A stretch of 20,483 bases of DNA. Origin: a virus. How positions within the stretch are numbered: position 1 is the first letter of the stretch; every line of letters begins with the position of its first letter. The notes under the pieces were generated by a model. The model worked only from the letters and a program-made list of their open reading frames with translations, made no database searches and was not told where the DNA came from. A program made the position numbers and the translations under genes. The stretch is taken from positions 1 to 20,483 of the IMG/VR virus record IMGVR_UViG_3300010885_014141, one strand, 5' to 3'. Of this stretch, positions 6,379-20,483 are shown in pieces.

Positions 6379-7524
6379 ATGATAGTTAAAGCATGTGATT
6401 TAGAGACTACCATCTTCAATAAGGGAAACGCATTTGATGTTAGGAATGAGGTTTGCTTTATAGGACTTGGTGATACATTGTGGGATATACAATATTCAGA
6501 GGAACCCTATGGACAGAAATTGTTGGAAATACAAAATTGCATTGACAATTGCGACCTTTTGCTTTTTATTAATGCTAAGTTTGATTTACATCATCTTCGT
6601 AATTTAGGAATTAAATTTAATCACAAACGGATTTGGGACTGTCAACTAGTAGACTTTATGCTAGAGGCTCAAACTACCCCTTATCCATCTATGAATGGGA
6701 TGGCAGAAAAATATGGTTTACAGAGTAAAGACGATAAGATTGCAACGTATTGGGAAGCTGGCATCTGCACTAAAGGGATTCCGTATGACGAGATATCGGA
6801 GTATCTACGACATGACCTTAAAACGACTGAAGAAATTTATAATATACAGAAGGAACTTGTTGAACTCAAAGATAAGAAATTCCAAAGACTTCTCAGTCTA
6901 ATGAACCAAGACTTACTAGTTCTACAAGATATTGAATACAACGGATTTTACTTTAATGAAGAAGCTTGTTTAGAACGAGCTAAAAATAGTCAAAAACAAA
7001 TTGATGAACTAAGGATGGAATTAAATGATTACCATAACATCGAAGGATTTAACAGTGAAAGTGGAGACCACATCTCTGCTCTCTTATACGGAGGAACAAT
7101 TACTATCCCTTGCAAAGAACTTATCGGAGTTTATAAAACAGGAGATAGAAAAGGAGAAGATAAATACGGATGGAAAGATAAGTGTTACACTCTCTCTAGG
7201 TTATTTAACCCTCTGCCACGAACAGAACTTAAAAAAGACGGCTATTACGCAACAGGAGAGGACGTTCTTAAACAACTTAAATCTAGGGATAAGTCCGCTA
7301 GACGGGTTATTGAAATTATCTTAACTCTGGCTAAATTAGAAAAGATTGTAGGAACCTATTACAATGGACTGCCCAAACTAAGAGAGACAATGAACTGGAA
7401 ACCTAACATGTTGCATGGAAATTTAAACCAAGTAACAGCTAGGACAGGAAGACTTAGTAGCACCAAGCCAAACCTACAGAATATTAGTGGGGATATGAAA
7501 GAAATATTTACATCGAGGTATTAA
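6379..7524 (+). CDS. DNA polymerase family A, N-terminal half (3'-5' exonuclease and thumb), 381 aa
   Basis: This is the proofreading domain and the first part of the polymerase domain of a T7/Pol I-type enzyme. Exo I is CDLET (Asp7, Glu9), Exo II is FINAKFDL (Asn65, Asp69) and Exo III is YLRHD (Tyr142, Asp146), so proofreading residues are intact. The C-terminus holds the conserved TGRLSSTKPNLQNI followed by KEIFTSRY and then stops with TAA. In intact relatives the chain continues at once into motif A. Here the missing palm and fingers are encoded by a separate gene starting at 8075, after three small genes. The last codons contain CGAGG, the RBS of the gene at 7526, so the new end has been adapted to its neighbours. 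Activity needs the C-terminal half, presumably by association. Confidence 0.93.
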   Translation: MIVKACDLETTIFNKGNAFDVRNEVCFIGLGDTLWDIQYSEEPYGQKLLEIQNCIDNCDLLLFINAKFDLHHLRNLGIKFNHKRIWDCQLVDFMLEAQTTPYPSMNGMAEKYGLQSKDDKIATYWEAGICTKGIPYDEISEYLRHDLKTTEEIYNIQKELVELKDKKFQRLLSLMNQDLLVLQDIEYNGFYFNEEACLERAKNSQKQIDELRMELNDYHNIEGFNSESGDHISALLYGGTITIPCKELIGVYKTGDRKGEDKYGWKDKCYTLSRLFNPLPRTELKKDGYYATGEDVLKQLKSRDKSARRVIEIILTLAKLEKIVGTYYNGLPKLRETMNWKPNMLHGNLNQVTARTGRLSSTKPNLQNISGDMKEIFTSRY

Positions 7525-7525
7525 T

Positions 7526-7636
7526 ATGTTAGTGTGCGTATATTGTGGTGAAGAAATAGATGAAGGACAACTTGAATGTTGTGGAGAAAACCATTTTGAG
7601 GAGATTGATGATGACGAAGACTACCCTTTCGATTGA
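7526..7636 (+). CDS. Tiny zinc-ribbon-like acidic protein, 36 aa
   Basis: This is the first of three genes inserted between the polymerase halves. It starts one base after the N-half stop, with CGAGG (7514-7518) as RBS. The product has CVYC (Cys4, Cys7) and CC (Cys18, Cys19) and an acidic tail (EEIDDDEDYPFD), compatible with a single small zinc site. It is unrecognised. It overlaps the next gene by about 26 bases. Confidence 0.6.
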   Translation: MLVCVYCGEEIDEGQLECCGENHFEEIDDDEDYPFD

Positions 7637-7895
7637 AACACAAGTAGTAGATTTTTTATCCTTTACACCAAAACTATCAGATTATATTGATGATACATCT
7701 TGGATGGCAGACGAAGTAAATATTATTTTACATGATGATGAAGATGATAAACTAGCTCGGATTCGTGATATTTATTTTAAAGAGTTTTATAAAATGGCTA
7801 CCTTTGTAGCTGATAACCATGAATCTGCTCCTACTGCATCATGGCTATATAATGAAATTATAGACGAAGACTTTTTGGAGGACGAAGATGAGTAA
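7611..7895 (+). CDS. Hypothetical acidic protein inside split polymerase, 94 aa
   Basis: GAGGAG (7598-7603) precedes a double ATG at 7608/7611; 7611 has the better spacing. The product is strongly acidic, rich in Asp and Glu (HDDEDDKLARIRD; NEIIDEDFLEDEDE at the C-terminus) and helical. No domain is recognised. It is the middle gene of the cassette that separates the polymerase halves and overlaps both neighbours by a few bases, so all are read from one transcript. A bridging or clamp-like role between the polymerase halves is only a thought. Confidence 0.68.
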   Translation: MTKTTLSIETQVVDFLSFTPKLSDYIDDTSWMADEVNIILHDDEDDKLARIRDIYFKEFYKMATFVADNHESAPTASWLYNEIIDEDFLEDEDE

Positions 7896-8091
7896 GTTAC
7901 AGGAGTATCCTGAAGAGGATTATAAAGTAGATGTTACCTATGATATGGAAGAGGCATGGGTTTATGCAACAACTTCAAATGCTGATGAAGTGATACAAAA
8001 ATATGGAGTTGATTTCTTTATTGAAAAACTCCCTCGATATTCTAAAATAGCTTTACTTGCTTGGAAACAAAAAAATGTTAATACAGGCTGA
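7888..8091 (+). CDS. Hypothetical protein overlapping start of polymerase C-half, 67 aa
   Basis: GGAGG (7877-7881) lies six bases before the ATG, inside the end of the preceding gene. The product begins MSKLQEYPEEDYKVDVTYD and ends in a basic tail (LLAWKQKNVNTG). No family is recognised. Its last 17 bases overlap the start of the polymerase C-terminal half (ATG 8075), which has only a weak RBS of its own, so this gene probably drives translation of the polymerase half by coupling. Confidence 0.68.
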   Translation: MSKLQEYPEEDYKVDVTYDMEEAWVYATTSNADEVIQKYGVDFFIEKLPRYSKIALLAWKQKNVNTG

Positions 8092-8788
8092 TGCTGCTGC
8101 ACTAGAGATTAGGGTTGCTGCTTTTCTTAGTCAAGATGAAACTCTAATTAAAGAGATTGTAGAAGAGTTAGATATTCATACTGATAATCAGAATAGATTT
8201 GGACTGCCATCTAGACTCATTGCAAAGATATTTGTGTTTAGACTTTTATATGGAGGCAGTGCTTATTCCTATGCTAATGATCCTGAGTTTATGGAGATTA
8301 GTAAGAGTGAGAAATATTGGCAAGAAATTATTGATGCTTACTATGATAAATATAAGGGGATTAAGAAATGGCATATTAAACTTGTAAGAGAGGCAGTAGA
8401 AACAGGTAAGGTAATTAGTCCCACAGGAAGGGAATATCGGTTCCAGCAATATAATGGGAACTACAAGGATACACAGATTAAGAACTACATTGTGCAGGGT
8501 ACTGGGGCTGACATTATGGCTCTTGCACGAGTTAGCTTCTTCAATCGACTCAAGAAGTTAAACTATAGCGAGTGCTTACTGGTTAATACAGTGCATGATT
8601 CAATAGTTCTTGACTTTAATGAGAAAACATGCGACAATAAGCTTATAGCTCAAACATTGCATGAAGTGTTTGATGATATTCCAAAGAATTTTGAGAAGTT
8701 GTTTTTAACCCCTTTCAATGTACCTATGACTTGTGAAGTGCTAATGGGCAAAGACTGGGAAAATATGGAGGTAATAGAATGTTTATAG
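8075..8788 (+). CDS. DNA polymerase family A, C-terminal half (palm and fingers), 237 aa
   Basis: This carries the whole polymerase active site. Motif A is QADAAALEIR with the catalytic Asp at residue 6. Motif B is RLIAKIFVFRLLYG (Arg47, Lys51, Phe55, Tyr59), in which Phe55 matches E. coli Pol I Phe762. Motif C is TVHDSIVLD with His174 and Asp175. The protein begins only six residues before the motif A Asp, where the N-half gene stopped, so almost nothing is lost between the two. The ATG at 8075 is used; an in-frame TTG at 8057 is the alternative. Translation is probably coupled to the gene ending at 8091. It overlaps the SSB-like gene by ten bases. All key residues are present, so it should work with the N-half in trans. 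Confidence 0.92.
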   Translation: MLIQADAAALEIRVAAFLSQDETLIKEIVEELDIHTDNQNRFGLPSRLIAKIFVFRLLYGGSAYSYANDPEFMEISKSEKYWQEIIDAYYDKYKGIKKWHIKLVREAVETGKVISPTGREYRFQQYNGNYKDTQIKNYIVQGTGADIMALARVSFFNRLKKLNYSECLLVNTVHDSIVLDFNEKTCDNKLIAQTLHEVFDDIPKNFEKLFLTPFNVPMTCEVLMGKDWENMEVIECL

Positions 8789-9318: not shown

Positions 9319-9343
9319 AAGGGGGCTAGTCCCCCTTCTTTTT
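9319..9343 (+). terminator. Intrinsic terminator after SSB-like gene
   Basis: AAGGGGG (9319-9325) pairs with CCCCCTT (9331-9337) around a CTAGT loop, followed by CTTTTT (9338-9343). It is a compact seven-pair hairpin with a U-tract, lying in the only gap of this size within the replication block. It would end or attenuate transcripts after the SSB-like gene; the genes from 9354 on need read-through or their own promoter. Confidence 0.85.
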
Positions 9344-9353
9344 AAGGAATAAT

Positions 9354-10058
9354 ATGATAGCACTATTAGATGGAGATTTAATTTTATATAGATGTGCCGC
9401 TAGTGCTGAGAATGATCCTTATGGCATTGCACAATCAAGGGTCAATGAACTTTTAGATCAGATTTTAGAAGCTATAGATGCAAAGGAATACCGCTTCTTT
9501 CTATCAGGCAAAAAGAATTTTAGGAAAGCAATCTATCCTGAATATAAAGCCAATCGCACTCAACCTAAACCTATCCACTTATCATCTCTTAGAGAGTGGG
9601 CTTGTGAATCTTTAAATGCAGAAGTAACAGACCATGAATTAGAAGCAGATGATTATATGGGAATCTACCAAGATAAAGTAGAAGGTAGTACAACTATTTG
9701 TTCCCTTGATAAAGATTTATTGATGATTCCAGGAAATCACTATCAATGGCAATTTGGAACTAGCAAGTGGACTAAAGAAGCAAATCGTATGTATCAATCT
9801 GAATTAGAAGGTTTAAGACTATTTTATGAGCAATGTCTTAAAGGGGATAAAGCAGATAATATTAAAGGTATAGCAGGACTTGGAGATGCTAAAGCAAAAA
9901 AACTTCTAGCTGAATGTACTAATGAAAAAGAGATGCTAGATATTGTTTTAGAAAAATATGGGCATGAGGAAGAGTTTTTAATGAACGCACAGTGCTTGTG
10001 GATATTACAAGGATTTGACCAATATTATTTGGAGAGATATGATGCACTTAAAACTTGA
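9354..10058 (+). CDS. 5'-3' exonuclease (FEN/T7 gp6-like), 234 aa
   Basis: A flap/5' nuclease that removes RNA primers and degrades host DNA. The N-terminal metal site starts LLDGDLILYR (Asp6, Asp8). Later acidic residues are in DHELEADDYMGI and CSLDKDLLMI, and GDKADNIKG is followed by the helix-three-turn-helix GIAGLGDAKAKKLL that grips DNA. All are in family order; 234 residues is a short but complete phage version. The ATG follows AAGGAAT. It is the first gene after the terminator at 9319-9343, and its end overlaps the next gene by about 20 bases. Confidence 0.92.
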   Translation: MIALLDGDLILYRCAASAENDPYGIAQSRVNELLDQILEAIDAKEYRFFLSGKKNFRKAIYPEYKANRTQPKPIHLSSLREWACESLNAEVTDHELEADDYMGIYQDKVEGSTTICSLDKDLLMIPGNHYQWQFGTSKWTKEANRMYQSELEGLRLFYEQCLKGDKADNIKGIAGLGDAKAKKLLAECTNEKEMLDIVLEKYGHEEEFLMNAQCLWILQGFDQYYLERYDALKT

Positions 10059-10290
10059 TATAGAACAGATGGGAGAGGTAGCAATAGTCTACTTGAGGGA
10101 ATGTATTATGTTAGAACTTCTCTTTGATAGGAATGAGAAAGTATTAAAACACTATATGTTTGTATTAAAAGAAATAACCCCTCCTGGAGAACATAATGAG
10201 TACAAGAAAAACTTCTACAAAGAAATCTGTAGAATGGACAGAGGGTCGCTTCAGAGCCTTCATAACGAGTACACTGAGGGGTGGTTTTAG
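10039..10290 (+). CDS. Conserved small phage protein, 83 aa
   Basis: GGAGAG (10031-10036) precedes a double ATG at 10039/10042. The product is helical (LDIEQMGEVAIVYLRECIML, then NEKVLKHYMFVLKEITPPGE) and resembles short phage proteins of unknown role that end in a YYMTP-like segment. Its last 95 bases overlap the HNH gene in a different frame, an unusually long overlap for this genome; the residues after about 53 may therefore be an extension created when the HNH gene became fixed here. Confidence 0.58.
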   Translation: MMHLKLDIEQMGEVAIVYLRECIMLELLFDRNEKVLKHYMFVLKEITPPGEHNEYKKNFYKEICRMDRGSLQSLHNEYTEGWF

Positions 10291-10600
10291 AAGATACCCT
10301 CCAAAATATGAAGTATTGAAAGAAGCTTTATGGGGTAAGAAAGTCAATAGCAAGTCTGGTAGGATGTGTTTACATTACACTTGTAATGAGTGTAAAGGGC
10401 AGTATCCAGCTAAAGAGGTTAATGTAGATCATATACTCCCTGTAGTAGATCCAGCAATAGGTTTTAAAAATTGGGATGTATTTGTTAAAAGACTTTTTTG
10501 TGATAAAGAAAACTTACAAGTATTATGCAGTAAATGCCATACCAAAAAAACTAAACAGGAAAGAGAGGTTCGAAATGCTACTACTAGATCCAGCAAGTAA
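10196..10600 (+). CDS. HNH endonuclease, 134 aa
   Basis: A zinc-dependent HNH nuclease. CNEC (Cys63, Cys66) and CSKC (Cys111, Cys114) hold a structural zinc; VDHI gives Asp78-His79, ENLQVLC gives Asn106, and CHTKK gives His115, making a complete HNH motif. The N-terminal part (VEWTEGRFRAFITSTLRGGF, then RRYPPKYEVLKEA) belongs to a family conserved in phages next to replication genes, so it may be a resident phage nuclease (a role like T7 endonuclease I) as well as a possible homing enzyme. GGAG lies seven bases upstream of the ATG. It overlaps neighbours at both ends (95 and 26 bases). Confidence 0.88.
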   Translation: MSTRKTSTKKSVEWTEGRFRAFITSTLRGGFRRYPPKYEVLKEALWGKKVNSKSGRMCLHYTCNECKGQYPAKEVNVDHILPVVDPAIGFKNWDVFVKRLFCDKENLQVLCSKCHTKKTKQEREVRNATTRSSK

Positions 10601-10853
10601 ATATGCAGATTGTATTATTGGGGAAGATTATTATGGAAGTAAAGTGGTCTATGATGCTGAAAAAGTAATTAAAGTTTTAATGACTATGGATGAAATGACT
10701 GAAGAAGAAGCTTTAGAATACTTTGAATTTAATATTGTTGGTGCCTATGTTGGAGAAGAAACTCCTCTTTTTATTTGGAAGACAGATGGATGGAATGAAG
10801 ATAGGGTAGATATAATTGGGCAAAACGGAAATGATGGAGATCATTATGAGTAA
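10575..10853 (+). CDS. Hypothetical acidic protein, 92 aa
   Basis: The ATG at 10575 follows GAGAGG (10563-10568); a longer frame open to 10476 lies within the HNH gene and lacks a start signal. The product (MLLLDPASKYADCIIGEDYY, then EEALEYFEFNIVGAYVGEET, then IFIWKT-like and DRVDIIGQNGNDGDHYE) resembles a small conserved phage protein whose function I do not know. It has no metal or membrane motif. It overlaps the HNH end by 26 bases and the phosphatase start by eight. Confidence 0.7.
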   Translation: MLLLDPASKYADCIIGEDYYGSKVVYDAEKVIKVLMTMDEMTEEEALEYFEFNIVGAYVGEETPLFIWKTDGWNEDRVDIIGQNGNDGDHYE

Positions 10854-11640
10854 ACGTATTTTAGTGATACCTGATAGTCAAGTACAACCTGATGATTCAT
10901 TTGAATTTCTATCATTCATTGGTCAATATGCTGTAGATATTCGTCCTGATATCATTGTGCATTTGGGGGATTTTGCAGATATGCCTAGCCTTTCTAGCCA
11001 TGATAAAGCAGGAAGCAAAAGTATGGAAGGACAACGATATAAAGCAGATGTAAATGCTACTATTGAGGCAATGACTACTTTATTAACTCCAATTAAATCT
11101 CATCAAGAACTTCTTAAACAACAACATCGTCCTCGATGGAATCCTAGAATGGTTATGTTATATGGAAATCACGAAAATCGTATTAATCGGGCTATTCAAA
11201 ACGACCCTAAACTGGATGGGCTTATTTCTCTCTCCGATTTGCAATATGAAGAAATGGGATGGGAGACTTACCCTTTCTTACAGCCTGTCAATATTGAAGG
11301 GGTCATGTTCTGCCATTATTTTGTTTCTGGGGTTATGGGTAATCCTTGCACAACTGCTCGTGCTATACTTAATAAACATCATCAATCCTGCATTGCTGGA
11401 CATCAACAAGGACGGGATATAGCTTTTGGTAAACGTGCTGATGGTACCGAGATGACTGCCATGATTGTAGGCAGTGGGTACGAGCACGACGAAAAATATT
11501 TAAATTCACAAACAAATAATCATTGGAGAGGAGTTGTAGTATTGCATGAAGTAGTAGATGGTCACTTTGATGAAATGATGGTTTCATTGCGCTATCTTAG
11601 AACTAAATATAGTAAAGTTAAATTAGAAAGGGTAGCATAA
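10846..11640 (+). CDS. Calcineurin-like metallophosphoesterase, 264 aa
   Basis: A two-metal phosphoesterase. The motifs occur in order: VIPDSQVQP (first Asp, with Gln where the family often has His), HLGDFAD (GD), YGNHENR (GNHE) and CIAGHQQGR (GH). The family includes DNA/RNA phosphatases and nucleases; the substrate cannot be read from sequence. In phages it often sits in DNA-metabolism modules, as here. The ATG at 10846 is chosen because TGGAGA lies upstream and MSKRILVIPDS begins the first strand; the longer frame from 10816 is within the previous gene. The stop overlaps the DUF3310 gene start as TAATG. Confidence 0.88.
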   Translation: MSKRILVIPDSQVQPDDSFEFLSFIGQYAVDIRPDIIVHLGDFADMPSLSSHDKAGSKSMEGQRYKADVNATIEAMTTLLTPIKSHQELLKQQHRPRWNPRMVMLYGNHENRINRAIQNDPKLDGLISLSDLQYEEMGWETYPFLQPVNIEGVMFCHYFVSGVMGNPCTTARAILNKHHQSCIAGHQQGRDIAFGKRADGTEMTAMIVGSGYEHDEKYLNSQTNNHWRGVVVLHEVVDGHFDEMMVSLRYLRTKYSKVKLERVA

Positions 11641-11888
11641 TGGGATTGCCTGATTACGCATCTAAAGAAAGTACACTACCCTCTAGCAAACAGATTGGTG
11701 GGGCACATTATAAAAAGTATGCTATTCAACCTGCAGAGTTTTGTCATTATAATAATATTCCATATCTAGAAGCCACAGCCATTAAGTATTTGTGTCGATG
11801 GAGAGATAAAGGTGGAATGGAAGACTTAGATAAAGCAATCCATTACATTGAACTTCTAAAAGAATTTGAATATGTTGACATTAAGTGA
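11640..11888 (+). CDS. DUF3310 protein (T7 gp1.7-like domain), 82 aa
   Basis: The segment GGAHYKKYAIQPAEFCHYNN followed by EATAIKYLCRWRDKGGMEDLDKAIHYIELL is the DUF3310 signature (HYK, IQP, IKYLCR, KGG.EDL.KA.HY). This domain is found in many phages and in T7 gp1.7, a nucleotide kinase; kinase activity is not shown for most members. At 82 residues it is the bare domain. Its location just before the ribonucleotide reductase fits a nucleotide-metabolism role. Translation is coupled to the phosphatase by TAATG, and its 3' end overlaps the 51-aa gene. Confidence 0.88.
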   Translation: MGLPDYASKESTLPSSKQIGGAHYKKYAIQPAEFCHYNNIPYLEATAIKYLCRWRDKGGMEDLDKAIHYIELLKEFEYVDIK

Positions 11889-12027
11889 ATTAAAAGAAAG
11901 AATAATCGAGCAAGTTAGCGAAGAAGACCTCATTGACTTGCTTGGATTAACAACGGAAGAATTGGTAGATGCTTTTCCATATAAGATAGAAGACAAGTAT
12001 GAAGCCCTTCTCTCTGAGTTGGAATGA
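11872..12027 (+). CDS. Conserved small phage protein, 51 aa
   Basis: The product is an acidic helical protein (MLTLSELKERIIEQVSEEDL, then TTEELVDAFPYKIEDKYEAL) of a type common in podovirus genomes near nucleotide-metabolism genes, without known function. It overlaps the DUF3310 end by 17 bases. The LSELKERI...L..L...EELVDAF pattern suggests a small helical bundle. Confidence 0.75.
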   Translation: MLTLSELKERIIEQVSEEDLIDLLGLTTEELVDAFPYKIEDKYEALLSELE

Positions 12028-12079
12028 CTGGTTTCCTCCAATTAATTTATATAACTACCCTAGAAAAGAAAGAAAATAC

Positions 12080-17133: not shown

Positions 17134-18135
17134 TTAGATTTTACCAAATTTAATTCCTGGAGATACATTAGATGTACCTGGAGTTGGAGTACTTCCAAAT
17201 AAATTACTCATCCAACCACCTGCACTACCTGCTTGGCTACCAAGAGCACTCATCCCACCAGTAGCATAAGAAAGACCAGCTTGTCCTAATCCACTTAATA
17301 AGTTATCAAATAGACTTGGAGTATTTTCTGCAGCTACACGAGCATCTTCTTGACCTTGATATAGTTTAGCTTGATTAGCCCCAGCTTGTGCCCCTGCATT
17401 TCCAATATCCACTCCCATAGCTAAAGGTTTAAGTCCTAGACTTTCTATACCAGTACCATAACCTAATATTTGATTCATAGCAGTGTAAGGATCTTGTTTA
17501 ATTTGTTGCCCCATTCCGTAAGTAGCCAAAGCTTGTTTAATGTCATCAATTTGTTGTTGTCTAGCTTTATCAGTAGATTGAGCACCTAATTGAGCATCAG
17601 CTAATGATCTTGCAGAAAGAAGACTAAATTGTTCAGGATTAATATAGCCAGTTTGACCTGCATTATTAGTCATTCCAACCCCAACCCCAGTTCTACCTGT
17701 TTTAAATAGAGTGTCTGCAAGTTGTGAAGACTCTTGTGCTCTTCCAGGCTGCATTAAAGCTTGTTGTTGATTATAATAGTTTTGAGCAAGTTGATTAGTA
17801 TCTAAATTAGCCGCCTTACCGAATAAATTAATACCATAATTAGAAACATTATTAGCATAATCTGTTTGAGCTTGGGTAGGTGCCATACCTTGAGCACCCC
17901 CATAAAACATATCTCTAAAAGCAGCTAGTTTAGGGTCAAGAGTATATCCAGCAGTTTTATTATCTGTATTAAAATTAGAAGTACCAAACCCTGTTGAAAC
18001 TGAGTAAGGAGTAAATTTAGCAGCATTAATTGCTTGTGAGTAATCAGGAGTAGCTACATCACTTCCAAAAATAGCATCAAATAATGCTGGGGTACACCAA
18101 TTAATTACATATTCATACCATCTAAGCCAATTCAT
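17134..18135 (-). CDS. Putative internal virion protein, Gly/Ala/Gln-rich, 333 aa
   Basis: A low-complexity, Gly/Ala/Asn/Gln-rich protein with an N-terminal hydrophobic stretch (WLRWYEYVINWCTPALFDAIFG) and a C-terminal Gly/Ser segment with hydrophobic patches (GLGQAGLSYATGGMSALGSQ, then GGWMSNLFG). The repeated Gln-rich helices (QLAQNYYNQQQALMQPGRAQ) look like T7 gp14 or P22 gp7 type ejection proteins, though identity is not established. GGAG lies six bases before the ATG, inside the end of the cupin gene, which overlaps by 14 bases, so the cupin and this protein are translated together. Confidence 0.7.
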   Translation of the reverse strand: MNWLRWYEYVINWCTPALFDAIFGSDVATPDYSQAINAAKFTPYSVSTGFGTSNFNTDNKTAGYTLDPKLAAFRDMFYGGAQGMAPTQAQTDYANNVSNYGINLFGKAANLDTNQLAQNYYNQQQALMQPGRAQESSQLADTLFKTGRTGVGVGMTNNAGQTGYINPEQFSLLSARSLADAQLGAQSTDKARQQQIDDIKQALATYGMGQQIKQDPYTAMNQILGYGTGIESLGLKPLAMGVDIGNAGAQAGANQAKLYQGQEDARVAAENTPSLFDNLLSGLGQAGLSYATGGMSALGSQAGSAGGWMSNLFGSTPTPGTSNVSPGIKFGKI

Positions 18136-18502
18136 TTAATTCTCCAATTTTAACACTATCAATATCATCAACGTCTGCATACTCAGTAGCATGTATACAA
18201 AACCAAATACTATCTTCCAAAGCAACTATTGCATGTTCTTTACCAGCTTCAATTAATATACAGGCAGGAGCACTATATTCTACTTCATTCTCTTCTGTAA
18301 CTACTTTAACTTTACCACTACCTAAAATAGAAAGATGGTCATAAGAATGAATATGTTTTTTAGCAGTGTGGTTTTTTAATAAAATTGCTTGTCTAGCATA
18401 AACCCCAGCACCGAAGTGATGTTGGATTTGAGGATCATGTTCAAAATACCCTGTAGGAACTTCTCTTGCTTTTTCTAAAATAGTTGACATTAATTTATCC
18501 AT
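18122..18502 (-). CDS. Cupin-domain protein, 126 aa
   Basis: A single-domain cupin. KKHIHSYDHLSILG supplies the first metal motif (His50, His52, with His56 where many cupins have Glu), and LIEAGKEHAI supplies the second (Gly87, His90). All four metal ligands are therefore possible. The barrel runs about residues 33-105, followed by an acidic tail. The substrate is unknown; small cupins can be dioxygenases, isomerases or only structural. The ATG directly follows the radical SAM stop; an internal ATG at 18490 with GGAT upstream is an alternative. It is the third of three metal-enzyme-like genes (with 18503 and 19864) in the late block. Confidence 0.8.
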   Translation of the reverse strand: MDKLMSTILEKAREVPTGYFEHDPQIQHHFGAGVYARQAILLKNHTAKKHIHSYDHLSILGSGKVKVVTEENEVEYSAPACILIEAGKEHAIVALEDSIWFCIHATEYADVDDIDSVKIGELNELA

Positions 18503-19855
18503 CTAAATAGGTTGAATTGAAATAACTCTTTTTGCTTTAGGAATACCATTAATAGAACCAATAATATCTTTGCGGTCTTCTCTAAAATCCCCATCAATAT
18601 AAAATGGAATTGTCCCTGTTAACATTTCCCATCCAGCCATAAAAAAGGGAATATTATCACTATATGAGTTATTACAAGCTAAATCCCACATCCCACCTTC
18701 TAAAAACATACAAGAGCCTTGACATAATTGTAGTACAGGGCACTTAGGGCAATCTTCTCTATGACTCCAATGGGTACTTGTATTTAATTTAATTTTATCA
18801 AAATTATCTAAATGCCCAATTAAATGTTTTTCTCCATTAAAACTAGTAGAGATTGCACTTTGGTTTTGGCAAGTTAATACATTTCCTTTTAAATCCACTG
18901 CGATTTTACTAGGGTCATCCATTCCACATTTTTGCCCTAACACTTCTGCAGGTCTTTTATTTAAAATAGATTTAATAAAACCTTCTGTTTTTTTATGAAT
19001 GATATCAAATGAGTTAGCTTTTCCAGATCTAATATCTCCAAATGATTCTAGTCTAAATTTAATATGCTCTTCTGGATCTTTCATACAAGAGGCTACACCA
19101 CCTTCATCGTATGGGTCAATAAATCCACCTTCCCCTATTGGAGGTTCAAACCCTAGTTTATTCTTGAACCATTCTTGAACATCTACACGACTTTTATTAT
19201 CTTTATGGATCATACAATTAAAACTCATGCGACCTTTTGGCCCTAACTTTTCCCATAAATCCATAATATTAGCTAGTTGTTCTGGATCATCTAAAGGGTC
19301 TAATCCTCGTACATGATATCCTGGACCATCATGGGACAACCCAATTCCAAAGCCAATCTCATCAATCCAATCATTAATTTCCTTAGTTAATAATGATCCA
19401 TTAGTAACCATATTTAATATAGCATTAGGGTATAAAGTTTTAATTCCTTCTGCAAGGGGTCTTAATGTTTTAATATAAACTAATGGTTCCCCACCCCAAA
19501 ATTCAACTCTAAATTCTTCAGAAGGAGTAATCCAACTAGGAAGTTTATCTAAAAATGGTTGAACATCATCTTTAGTTGTTTCATCTGCTTTAGGTACAAA
19601 TCTTTGGTTACAATAACTACATTCATAATTACATGATAAACCAAGTTGAATCTTTAATACTTTTACTTCTTTAGATTTTCCTGCAGGAGTTTCTTTACTT
19701 GTTTTAACAGGGAAAGGGGTATAGTCTTTCTCCTCTCCTTTAAATTCTATAGTTGATCCATCTTCATTAAAAACCATAGATGTCATATTGTCATACCAAT
19801 ATACTATATTTTCATTTGTAATTGGTTTTGTTGCAGTTATTCTAAATTTAGCCAC
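18503..19855 (-). CDS. Radical SAM/SPASM domain enzyme, 450 aa
   Basis: The protein binds a [4Fe-4S] cluster through CNYECSYC (Cys75, Cys79, Cys82) and cleaves S-adenosylmethionine to a radical. WGGEP is the usual GGE motif after the second strand. The C-terminal third is a SPASM domain with two auxiliary clusters: KCGMDD, LTCQN, CPKCPVLQLCQGSC and LAC. SPASM enzymes modify peptides and proteins, such as sulfatase maturases and RiPP maturases. The first 65 residues are an extra beta-rich region that might bind a substrate. The start is GTG at 19855 with AAGGA five bases upstream. It lies between an oxygenase-like gene and a cupin among virion genes; no precursor peptide is visible nearby. The natural substrate is not known. 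Confidence 0.92.
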   Translation of the reverse strand: MAKFRITATKPITNENIVYWYDNMTSMVFNEDGSTIEFKGEEKDYTPFPVKTSKETPAGKSKEVKVLKIQLGLSCNYECSYCNQRFVPKADETTKDDVQPFLDKLPSWITPSEEFRVEFWGGEPLVYIKTLRPLAEGIKTLYPNAILNMVTNGSLLTKEINDWIDEIGFGIGLSHDGPGYHVRGLDPLDDPEQLANIMDLWEKLGPKGRMSFNCMIHKDNKSRVDVQEWFKNKLGFEPPIGEGGFIDPYDEGGVASCMKDPEEHIKFRLESFGDIRSGKANSFDIIHKKTEGFIKSILNKRPAEVLGQKCGMDDPSKIAVDLKGNVLTCQNQSAISTSFNGEKHLIGHLDNFDKIKLNTSTHWSHREDCPKCPVLQLCQGSCMFLEGGMWDLACNNSYSDNIPFFMAGWEMLTGTIPFYIDGDFREDRKDIIGSINGIPKAKRVISIQPI

Positions 19856-19863
19856 AGAAATCC

Positions 19864-20483
19864 TTATAATTTAATGTAGTTACGGACTGCTTCAACTACT
19901 TTAATATTTGTTACTAAGGCTATAGTGTCTTCATTCCCTAAATTAGCTTCAGTTGTATGAAACACAGAAGCAGAGTGCATTAAAAATAAACCAGGTTGTG
20001 GAGATACTGGGAACAACATGTTATGATTAAGAAGTCTACTTCTAGCTGCTATAGGATCAATCATATGAAAACGATTTCCTGCCATTTTCTGATGTGTCTG
20101 GTTATTAGCAAAATCTGTTATCTCCAAAGAAAGCCATAATACAGCGACATAATCTACACTACGATGATTATGAGGTTTTGCATATTCACCTGGACCAAAT
20201 TTACGCAAGCTTGTAATAGCTTCAAATTCTACTGTTTCTGGCTGAGCAAATCCTTCTGCTTTGGCTATATCAATCATTTTAGTTTTTAATAGGTTTTTAA
20301 ATAATTGGCAAGATGGTCTATTATCTGCTAAAAGGTTATAAGCAACCTCTTGGTTCTTTCTCATATAATGAGGTACATGGGCTTCTGGATGTTGAGCTTC
20401 ATACTCTTCACCTATAGCAATAATATCAGAGATAAATTCTGGAGTGACTTCTTGAGGAATTTCAGCAATAATATTGGTAGGCC
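19864..20483 (-). CDS. 2OG-Fe(II) oxygenase-like protein, partial (start beyond window)
   Basis: The reading frame is open to the right edge of the window, so the true start is beyond 20483; an ATG at 20364 has no RBS and lies within continuous coding sequence. About 205 C-terminal residues are seen. KFGPGEYAKPHNHRSVDYVA holds a His-x-His pair (visible residues 104 and 106), with PGLFLMHSASVFHTTEA (His175) as the distal strand; this is the layout of the small double-stranded beta-helix oxygenases common in phages that use Fe(II) and 2-oxoglutarate. The 2-oxoglutarate-binding Arg is not obvious, so it may instead be a cupin-like relative. It precedes the radical SAM gene by eight bases and is probably co-expressed with it. 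Confidence 0.68.
   Translation of the reverse strand, partial: PTNIIAEIPQEVTPEFISDIIAIGEEYEAQHPEAHVPHYMRKNQEVAYNLLADNRPSCQLFKNLLKTKMIDIAKAEGFAQPETVEFEAITSLRKFGPGEYAKPHNHRSVDYVAVLWLSLEITDFANNQTHQKMAGNRFHMIDPIAARSRLLNHNMLFPVSPQPGLFLMHSASVFHTTEANLGNEDTIALVTNIKVVEAVRNYIKL

Follow-up and report, generated by a model that had tools for sequence, protein, structure and literature searches.

A family A DNA polymerase encoded as two genes cut just before motif A in a clade of Zobellviridae-like phages

Split family A DNA polymerases have been published for the Methylophilales phages MEP401 and MEP402 (Zobellviridae), where the enzyme is encoded by ORF13 and ORF15 (PMC10580990). The same paper on OM43 phages reports the split in both phages and in most group I genomes and calls an intron possible (PMC10580990). 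Other phage replication genes are likewise split in two. The family B polymerase of Aeromonas phage 25 is divided into 43A and 43B, which co-purify and are active (PMC2988022), and T4 gene 60 was split by a homing endonuclease (mobA), with a bypassed insert that may protect it (PMC5009743). These systems belong to other protein families and come with an endonuclease, to which gene 60 adds a recoded insert, whereas the locus analysed here has neither.

The window, meaning the whole 20.5-kb virus record analysed here, encodes its family A DNA polymerase as two genes 550 nt apart. An earlier note made from the sequence had described this split, with an N-half ending in TAA, a C-half and 550 nt between them, and all three are present as described. 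The features of the locus are as follows.

6379 to 7524, + strand: polymerase N-half, 381 aa, TAA stop, ending ..IFTSRY; 3'-5' exonuclease (residues D7, E9, D69, Y142, D146) and thumb, then TGRLSSTKPNLQNI
7519 to 8077, + strand: the break; last N-half codon Tyr at 7519-7521, stop at 7522-7524, first C-half codon at 8075-8077
7526 to 7636, + strand: spacer ORF1, 36 aa, with CxxC; Shine-Dalgarno GAGG
7608 to 7895, + strand: spacer ORF2, 95 aa, no assigned function; Shine-Dalgarno GAGGAG
7888 to 8091, + strand: spacer ORF3, 67 aa; Shine-Dalgarno GGAGG; 17-nt overlap with the C-half start
8075 to 8788, + strand: polymerase C-half, starting with ATG, 237 aa; palm and fingers with motif A (D6-E11), motif B (R47/K51/F55/Y59) and motif C (HDS at 174-176)
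9319 to 9337, + strand: terminator-like hairpin downstream of the polymerase operon (pattern scan, weak evidence)

The split itself is already known from MEP401-type phages and the window is ordinary within its clade. It shares with MEP401 and MEP402 the same two halves and boundaries (identity 45-46% for the N-half and 52-53% for the C-half), the operon order from primase to ribonucleotide reductase and the presence of small ORF content between the halves, which consists of one 77-aa ORF in those phages and of three unrelated ORFs in the window. With two ORFs cut before motif A, the same boundaries and the same operon, the window carries a MEP401-type split polymerase, a type that may act as a two-subunit enzyme. 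MW202796 (Manatee Spring) and Alcaligenes phage vB_Af_QDWS535 also have the split boundaries of the window; the former differs by a 3.6-kb spacer with a cytosine methyltransferase gene and the latter by a TAATG junction without any spacer. The polymerase of Vibrio phage ICP2 (L006:4960-4990) is also found in two ORFs near motif A, but compared with the window its break lies about 15 residues further upstream, with a 9-nt spacer and both ORFs in the same frame. ICP2 falls outside the split clade in our tree and therefore probably represents a second, independent split. In its annotation, the C part appears as a hypothetical protein.

Motifs and predicted folds identify the protein pair of the window as a family A DNA polymerase with a Pol I fold. 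The N-half matches positions 49-135 of the Pfam DNA_pol_A profile (E 1.4e-17) and the C-half positions 154-380 (E 6.7e-32). The N-half also matches PHROG DNA polymerase families and carries the conserved segment TGRLSS..NLQN after the thumb. AlphaFold2 models have a pLDDT of 92.2 for the N-half, with a less certain tail, and of 95.3 for the C-half, in which a strand at residues 2-7 bears the motif A Asp. In Foldseek comparisons the C-half corresponds to the palm and fingers of Bst and Klentaq (TM about 0.8) and the N-half to the exonuclease plus thumb of Pol I-family structures. The catalytic residues of exonuclease and polymerase, including H174 and D175 of the C-half, are kept and nearly all of them are invariant or near-invariant among relatives. 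The initial description of the exonuclease motifs and motifs A to C as intact consequently holds for every catalytic residue and needs correction at motif C, which reads HDS instead of the usual HDE, as it does across nearly the whole clade. A search of bacterial and archaeal genome contigs returned no relatives of the C-half. A split intein at the break was also considered; there is no intein Pfam match and no extra domain, the N-half ending directly in SRY and the C-half opening with MLIQAD.

The cut lies in a hairpin of the palm and is highly constant in position. One-piece relatives read through the junction as SRF-ENG-VILDVD or as SR[FW]-EGG-KIxEAD, the latter being the junction of the HMO-2011-type polymerases, the nearest broad one-piece group, which are continuous through motif A. 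The window instead has SRY-stop and M-LIQAD. Aligned to these relatives it lacks only the three turn residues ENG/EGG, and Met replaces the next residue. This agrees with the earlier claims that at most a few residues are missing and that the break lies at the edge of the palm, the turn that was replaced being next to the strand with the motif A Asp. The C-half start codon precedes the motif A Asp by exactly five codons in 142 of the 146 loci that could be assessed (132 ATG, 6 TTG and 4 GTG), and in 97 of 131 loci the N-half continues for 13-15 residues past NxQN before it ends. The nearest relative of the window, L088, contains no ATG, GTG or TTG before motif A (8460-8500); the conserved start site holds ATC instead, preceded by a good ribosome-binding site (AAGGAG), and the catalytic subunit of this phage may possibly start at AUC.

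The 550 nt between the halves of the window are filled with genes. Each of the three spacer ORFs overlaps a neighbouring ORF and, as first noted, has a good ribosome-binding site. This description does not extend to the C-half, whose Shine-Dalgarno sequence is weak (GGAAA), unlike those of ORF1 to ORF3, and its translation probably depends on coupling to ORF3. A pattern scan, weak evidence in itself, found no terminator-like site on the + strand between the halves. Relatives of ORF3 occur in the spacers of L088 (2.7e-10), L013 and L024, while ORF1 and ORF2 have no relatives among the spacers of other loci. None of the three ORFs matches endonuclease families in Pfam or PHROG, and no resident homing endonuclease is present between the halves. 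The zinc-ribbon resemblance of ORF1 is weak, being a sub-threshold Pfam match only. An origin of ORF1 from a DnaJ-type zinc insert, as found in HMO-2011, was dropped for this reason and is also countered by the one-piece relatives that are continuous across the junction.

Among relatives, the spacer is an insertion slot with turnover of its cargo. N-half stop and C-half start overlap in 16 loci (for example by 17 nt in L014) and are separated by 0-5 nt in eight, with TAATG junctions in L117, L137 and L004. Spacers of 100-349 nt are found in 68 loci and spacers of at least 700 nt in 25, up to a maximum of 3.6 kb; some of the longest contain introns. Clustering of the spacer ORFs that reach 75 aa or more (73 in all) gave 54 clusters. 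In MW202796 (L001), which has the largest spacer seen, a cytosine methyltransferase gene and a stomatin-like gene (9882-11051 and 11675-12061) are located between the halves.

The split loci form a single clade. A search of IMG/VR with both halves, of the kind proposed in the earlier note, yielded 188 distinct loci that are split or incomplete, besides 13 one-piece loci; about 150 distinct contigs show the same split boundaries. A quick tree search on the C-half core, with L006 and L073 as long branches, separates 125 rows, every one of them split, from the one-piece rows by a branch with SH-aLRT 98. On the one-piece side, automatic labelling had called three rows split (L066, L076 and L086). 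They are HMO-2011-like contigs; in L066 and L076 the sequence runs on without a break across motif A, and L086 is truncated at its contig end. The presence of one split clade apart from one-piece relatives makes a single origin the simplest reading, and the split looks ancestral. Distances among N-halves and among C-halves correlate with r = 0.91 over 128 loci, a value obtained without a background control. A search for further one-piece relatives seeded with L073 returned only L073 itself. In four HMO-2011-like loci (L066, L067, L069 and L076) the exonuclease and polymerase domains are found in different, overlapping ORFs with a different split point.

Very probably, the two ORFs encode subunits of one replicative family A polymerase that goes back to a single old fission in the ancestor of a Zobellviridae-like clade. 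The fission would have replaced the exposed 3-residue turn of the palm hairpin, leaving an N-half with the exonuclease, the thumb and the strand ending ..IFTSRY and a C-half that starts with Met on the strand of the motif A Asp. Coupled initiation on a single mRNA would produce both subunits, which would then join non-covalently, their hairpin strands pairing the way they do in a one-piece enzyme, into a single proofreading polymerase. The co-purifying, active 43A/43B polymerase of Aeromonas phage 25 is a precedent for such assembly (PMC2988022). The gap between the genes would later have become a free insertion slot. Two polypeptides assembling into one polymerase is the best reading because the catalytic residues are kept, the folds are complementary, the halves diverge in parallel, the boundaries are constant and no intron is found. 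The earlier proposal of two polypeptides forming one enzyme is thus supported by folds, boundaries and N-C correlation, and we infer association, activity and translational coupling of the halves. A replicative polymerase cut at the hairpin of its catalytic Asp yet kept across a phage clade would represent a natural two-part polymerase design.

Relatives of the window carry small insertions at one site within motif A. In 17 distinct relatives (16 from IMG/VR and MW202697, L005), 1-10 nt are inserted between DAxQ and the W of EW in the C-half, leading to a frame change or a stop after the catalytic Asp. Motif A of the window has no such scar. The scars and their regions are listed below.

CAG CTT TGA GTGG: L064, L204
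CAR CTT TAG AGTGG: L181, L195, L223
CTT TAG CCC, CTC or CTT GAA: L053, L063, L192, L369
CAG TAG CGG CTA GAA: L191
CTT TAG ACC CGAA: L384
CAA CTT TCT TGAG: L044
Longer scars: 8 nt in L186; 7 nt in L062; two 10-nt forms in L208 and L211
Scar regions: L044:930-985; L062:2080-2130; L063:2275-2325; L064:310-345; L186:4955-5000; L192:4960-5010; L204:4965-5010

In the scarred genes, the reading frame set by the start codon retains M[LI][LI]xxD ahead of the scar, and beyond the scar the downstream frame retains the remainder of the enzyme. Outside the scar and intron sites, the only other C-half frame breaks noticed are a stop in L037 and an early end in L223. L204 and L064, a pair with the same scar, differ by dN 0.16 and dS 1.11 (dN/dS about 0.14), which argues that scarred genes still work and that the gene outside the scar is under selection. 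Each scarred record has a single family A polymerase, and no family B polymerase (PF00136) was found in the eight scarred records checked; a PolB_2 search, which gave no match in any control, is not counted as evidence. Dead genes are disfavoured as an explanation, given the restriction to one site, the low dN/dS of this pair and the single family A polymerase per record. Assembly errors are unlikely since the same scar is present in separate contigs (L181/L182/L183, L186/L187, L053/L391, and L064 and L204), although for MW202697 alone, whose frame is shifted by a single base, a sequencing error is conceivable.

The distribution of the scars points to mobile elements. On the tree, the 16 scarred rows require 15 state changes and like scars are located on separate branches, which argues for mobility or repeated origin. 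HNH genes are present in the spacers of 7/16 scarred and 5/143 unscarred loci (p = 1.6e-5; the rows are not independent and the counts include some introns in the N-half). Directly beside motif A, HNH genes are found in scarred L044, L062, L063, L186 and L192, as a relic in L191, and in unscarred L051 and L119; L044, L062 and L063 have a second, degenerate copy of motif A upstream of the HNH gene. A Leu codon CTT followed at once by a stop is found in 10/16 IMG/VR scars, and CTT is used at this position in 11/54 unscarred clade members. CTT TGA is the frameshift site of bacterial prfB. By analogy, this suggests homing-endonuclease-linked recoding as in T4 mobA/gene 60, the only case of endonuclease-linked bypass returned by a search of the phage literature. 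The scars might more specifically be endonuclease-resistant sites that spread with HNH genes and are read by programmed +1 frameshifting or ribosome hopping inside the active-site codons, as a recurrent mobile recoding cassette comparable to that of T4 gene 60, the split being an old product of the same process and the window unscarred; we put this forward tentatively, as a nearly even call. If true, homing endonucleases would repeatedly force recoding in active-site codons of an essential enzyme. The split had been published before; the scars found in its relatives are new and a surprising lead. A degenerate DNA pattern used to look for more scars found almost only unrelated, largely terminase-like genes and was discarded.

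The fission itself may have been caused by a homing endonuclease that targeted motif A. Such an endonuclease would have inserted there, like mobE in Aeh1 nrdA or mobA in T4 gene 60, split the gene and later been lost or replaced by other genes, an origin that is compatible with the two-subunit explanation. HNH genes and frame scars recur in relatives at motif A, 27-30 nt past the C-half start, the upstream copies of motif A in three of them resemble relics, and such an origin has been reported for other split phage genes (PMC2988022, PMC5009743). Against this, neither the spacer of the window nor most spacers of relatives contain an endonuclease, the insertions in relatives postdate the split, and the split is too old for its cause to be dated. 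We entertain this origin with some doubt, as a weaker point than the two-subunit reading.

A self-splicing intron that contains the small ORFs and whose removal restores one mRNA is highly improbable. Group I introns do occur at other sites in the polymerase of relatives. With HNH genes they are found at motif B (L060, L065, L070, L075, L213, L217, L218 and L221) and before NLQN (L061, L361, L387 and L208); L065, L061 and L213 were tested against Rfam (E about 1e-6) and the others were judged by like sequence. These intron-bearing relatives, however, carry the split in addition. The spacer of the window has no Rfam intron signature even at E 10, whereas the same tool detects the introns of relatives, which serve as positive controls below the Rfam gathering score. 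Its fold is unremarkable and it is packed with unrelated genes having their own ribosome-binding sites. Overlapping or TAATG junctions leave nothing to splice, and introns cannot explain the split in loci without any spacer. The intron question for the MEP401-type split is now largely answered, against an intron. In L222 and L223 the polymerase match ends at NYPVQG, perhaps a third intron or insertion site.

Decay of the gene, with the halves as remnants and another polymerase replicating the genome, might be suspected from a stop codon and spacer within a normally single gene but has a negligible probability, given that all catalytic residues are kept, that about 150 distinct contigs share the arrangement with conserved proteins and that the isolated, productive phages MEP401 and MEP402 have the split (PMC10580990). 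An assembly or sequencing error, conceivable for a metagenomic fragment, is just as remote since independent genomes, isolates included, have the same boundaries. The initial judgement that the split is neither an error nor a decayed gene is borne out by this recurrence.

Elsewhere in the window (18122-20364, - strand), cupin-like, radical SAM and 2OG-Fe(II) oxygenase-like genes follow one another in a row (weak Pfam matches). This set adjoins matchless, possibly structural genes and is unusual for a small phage.
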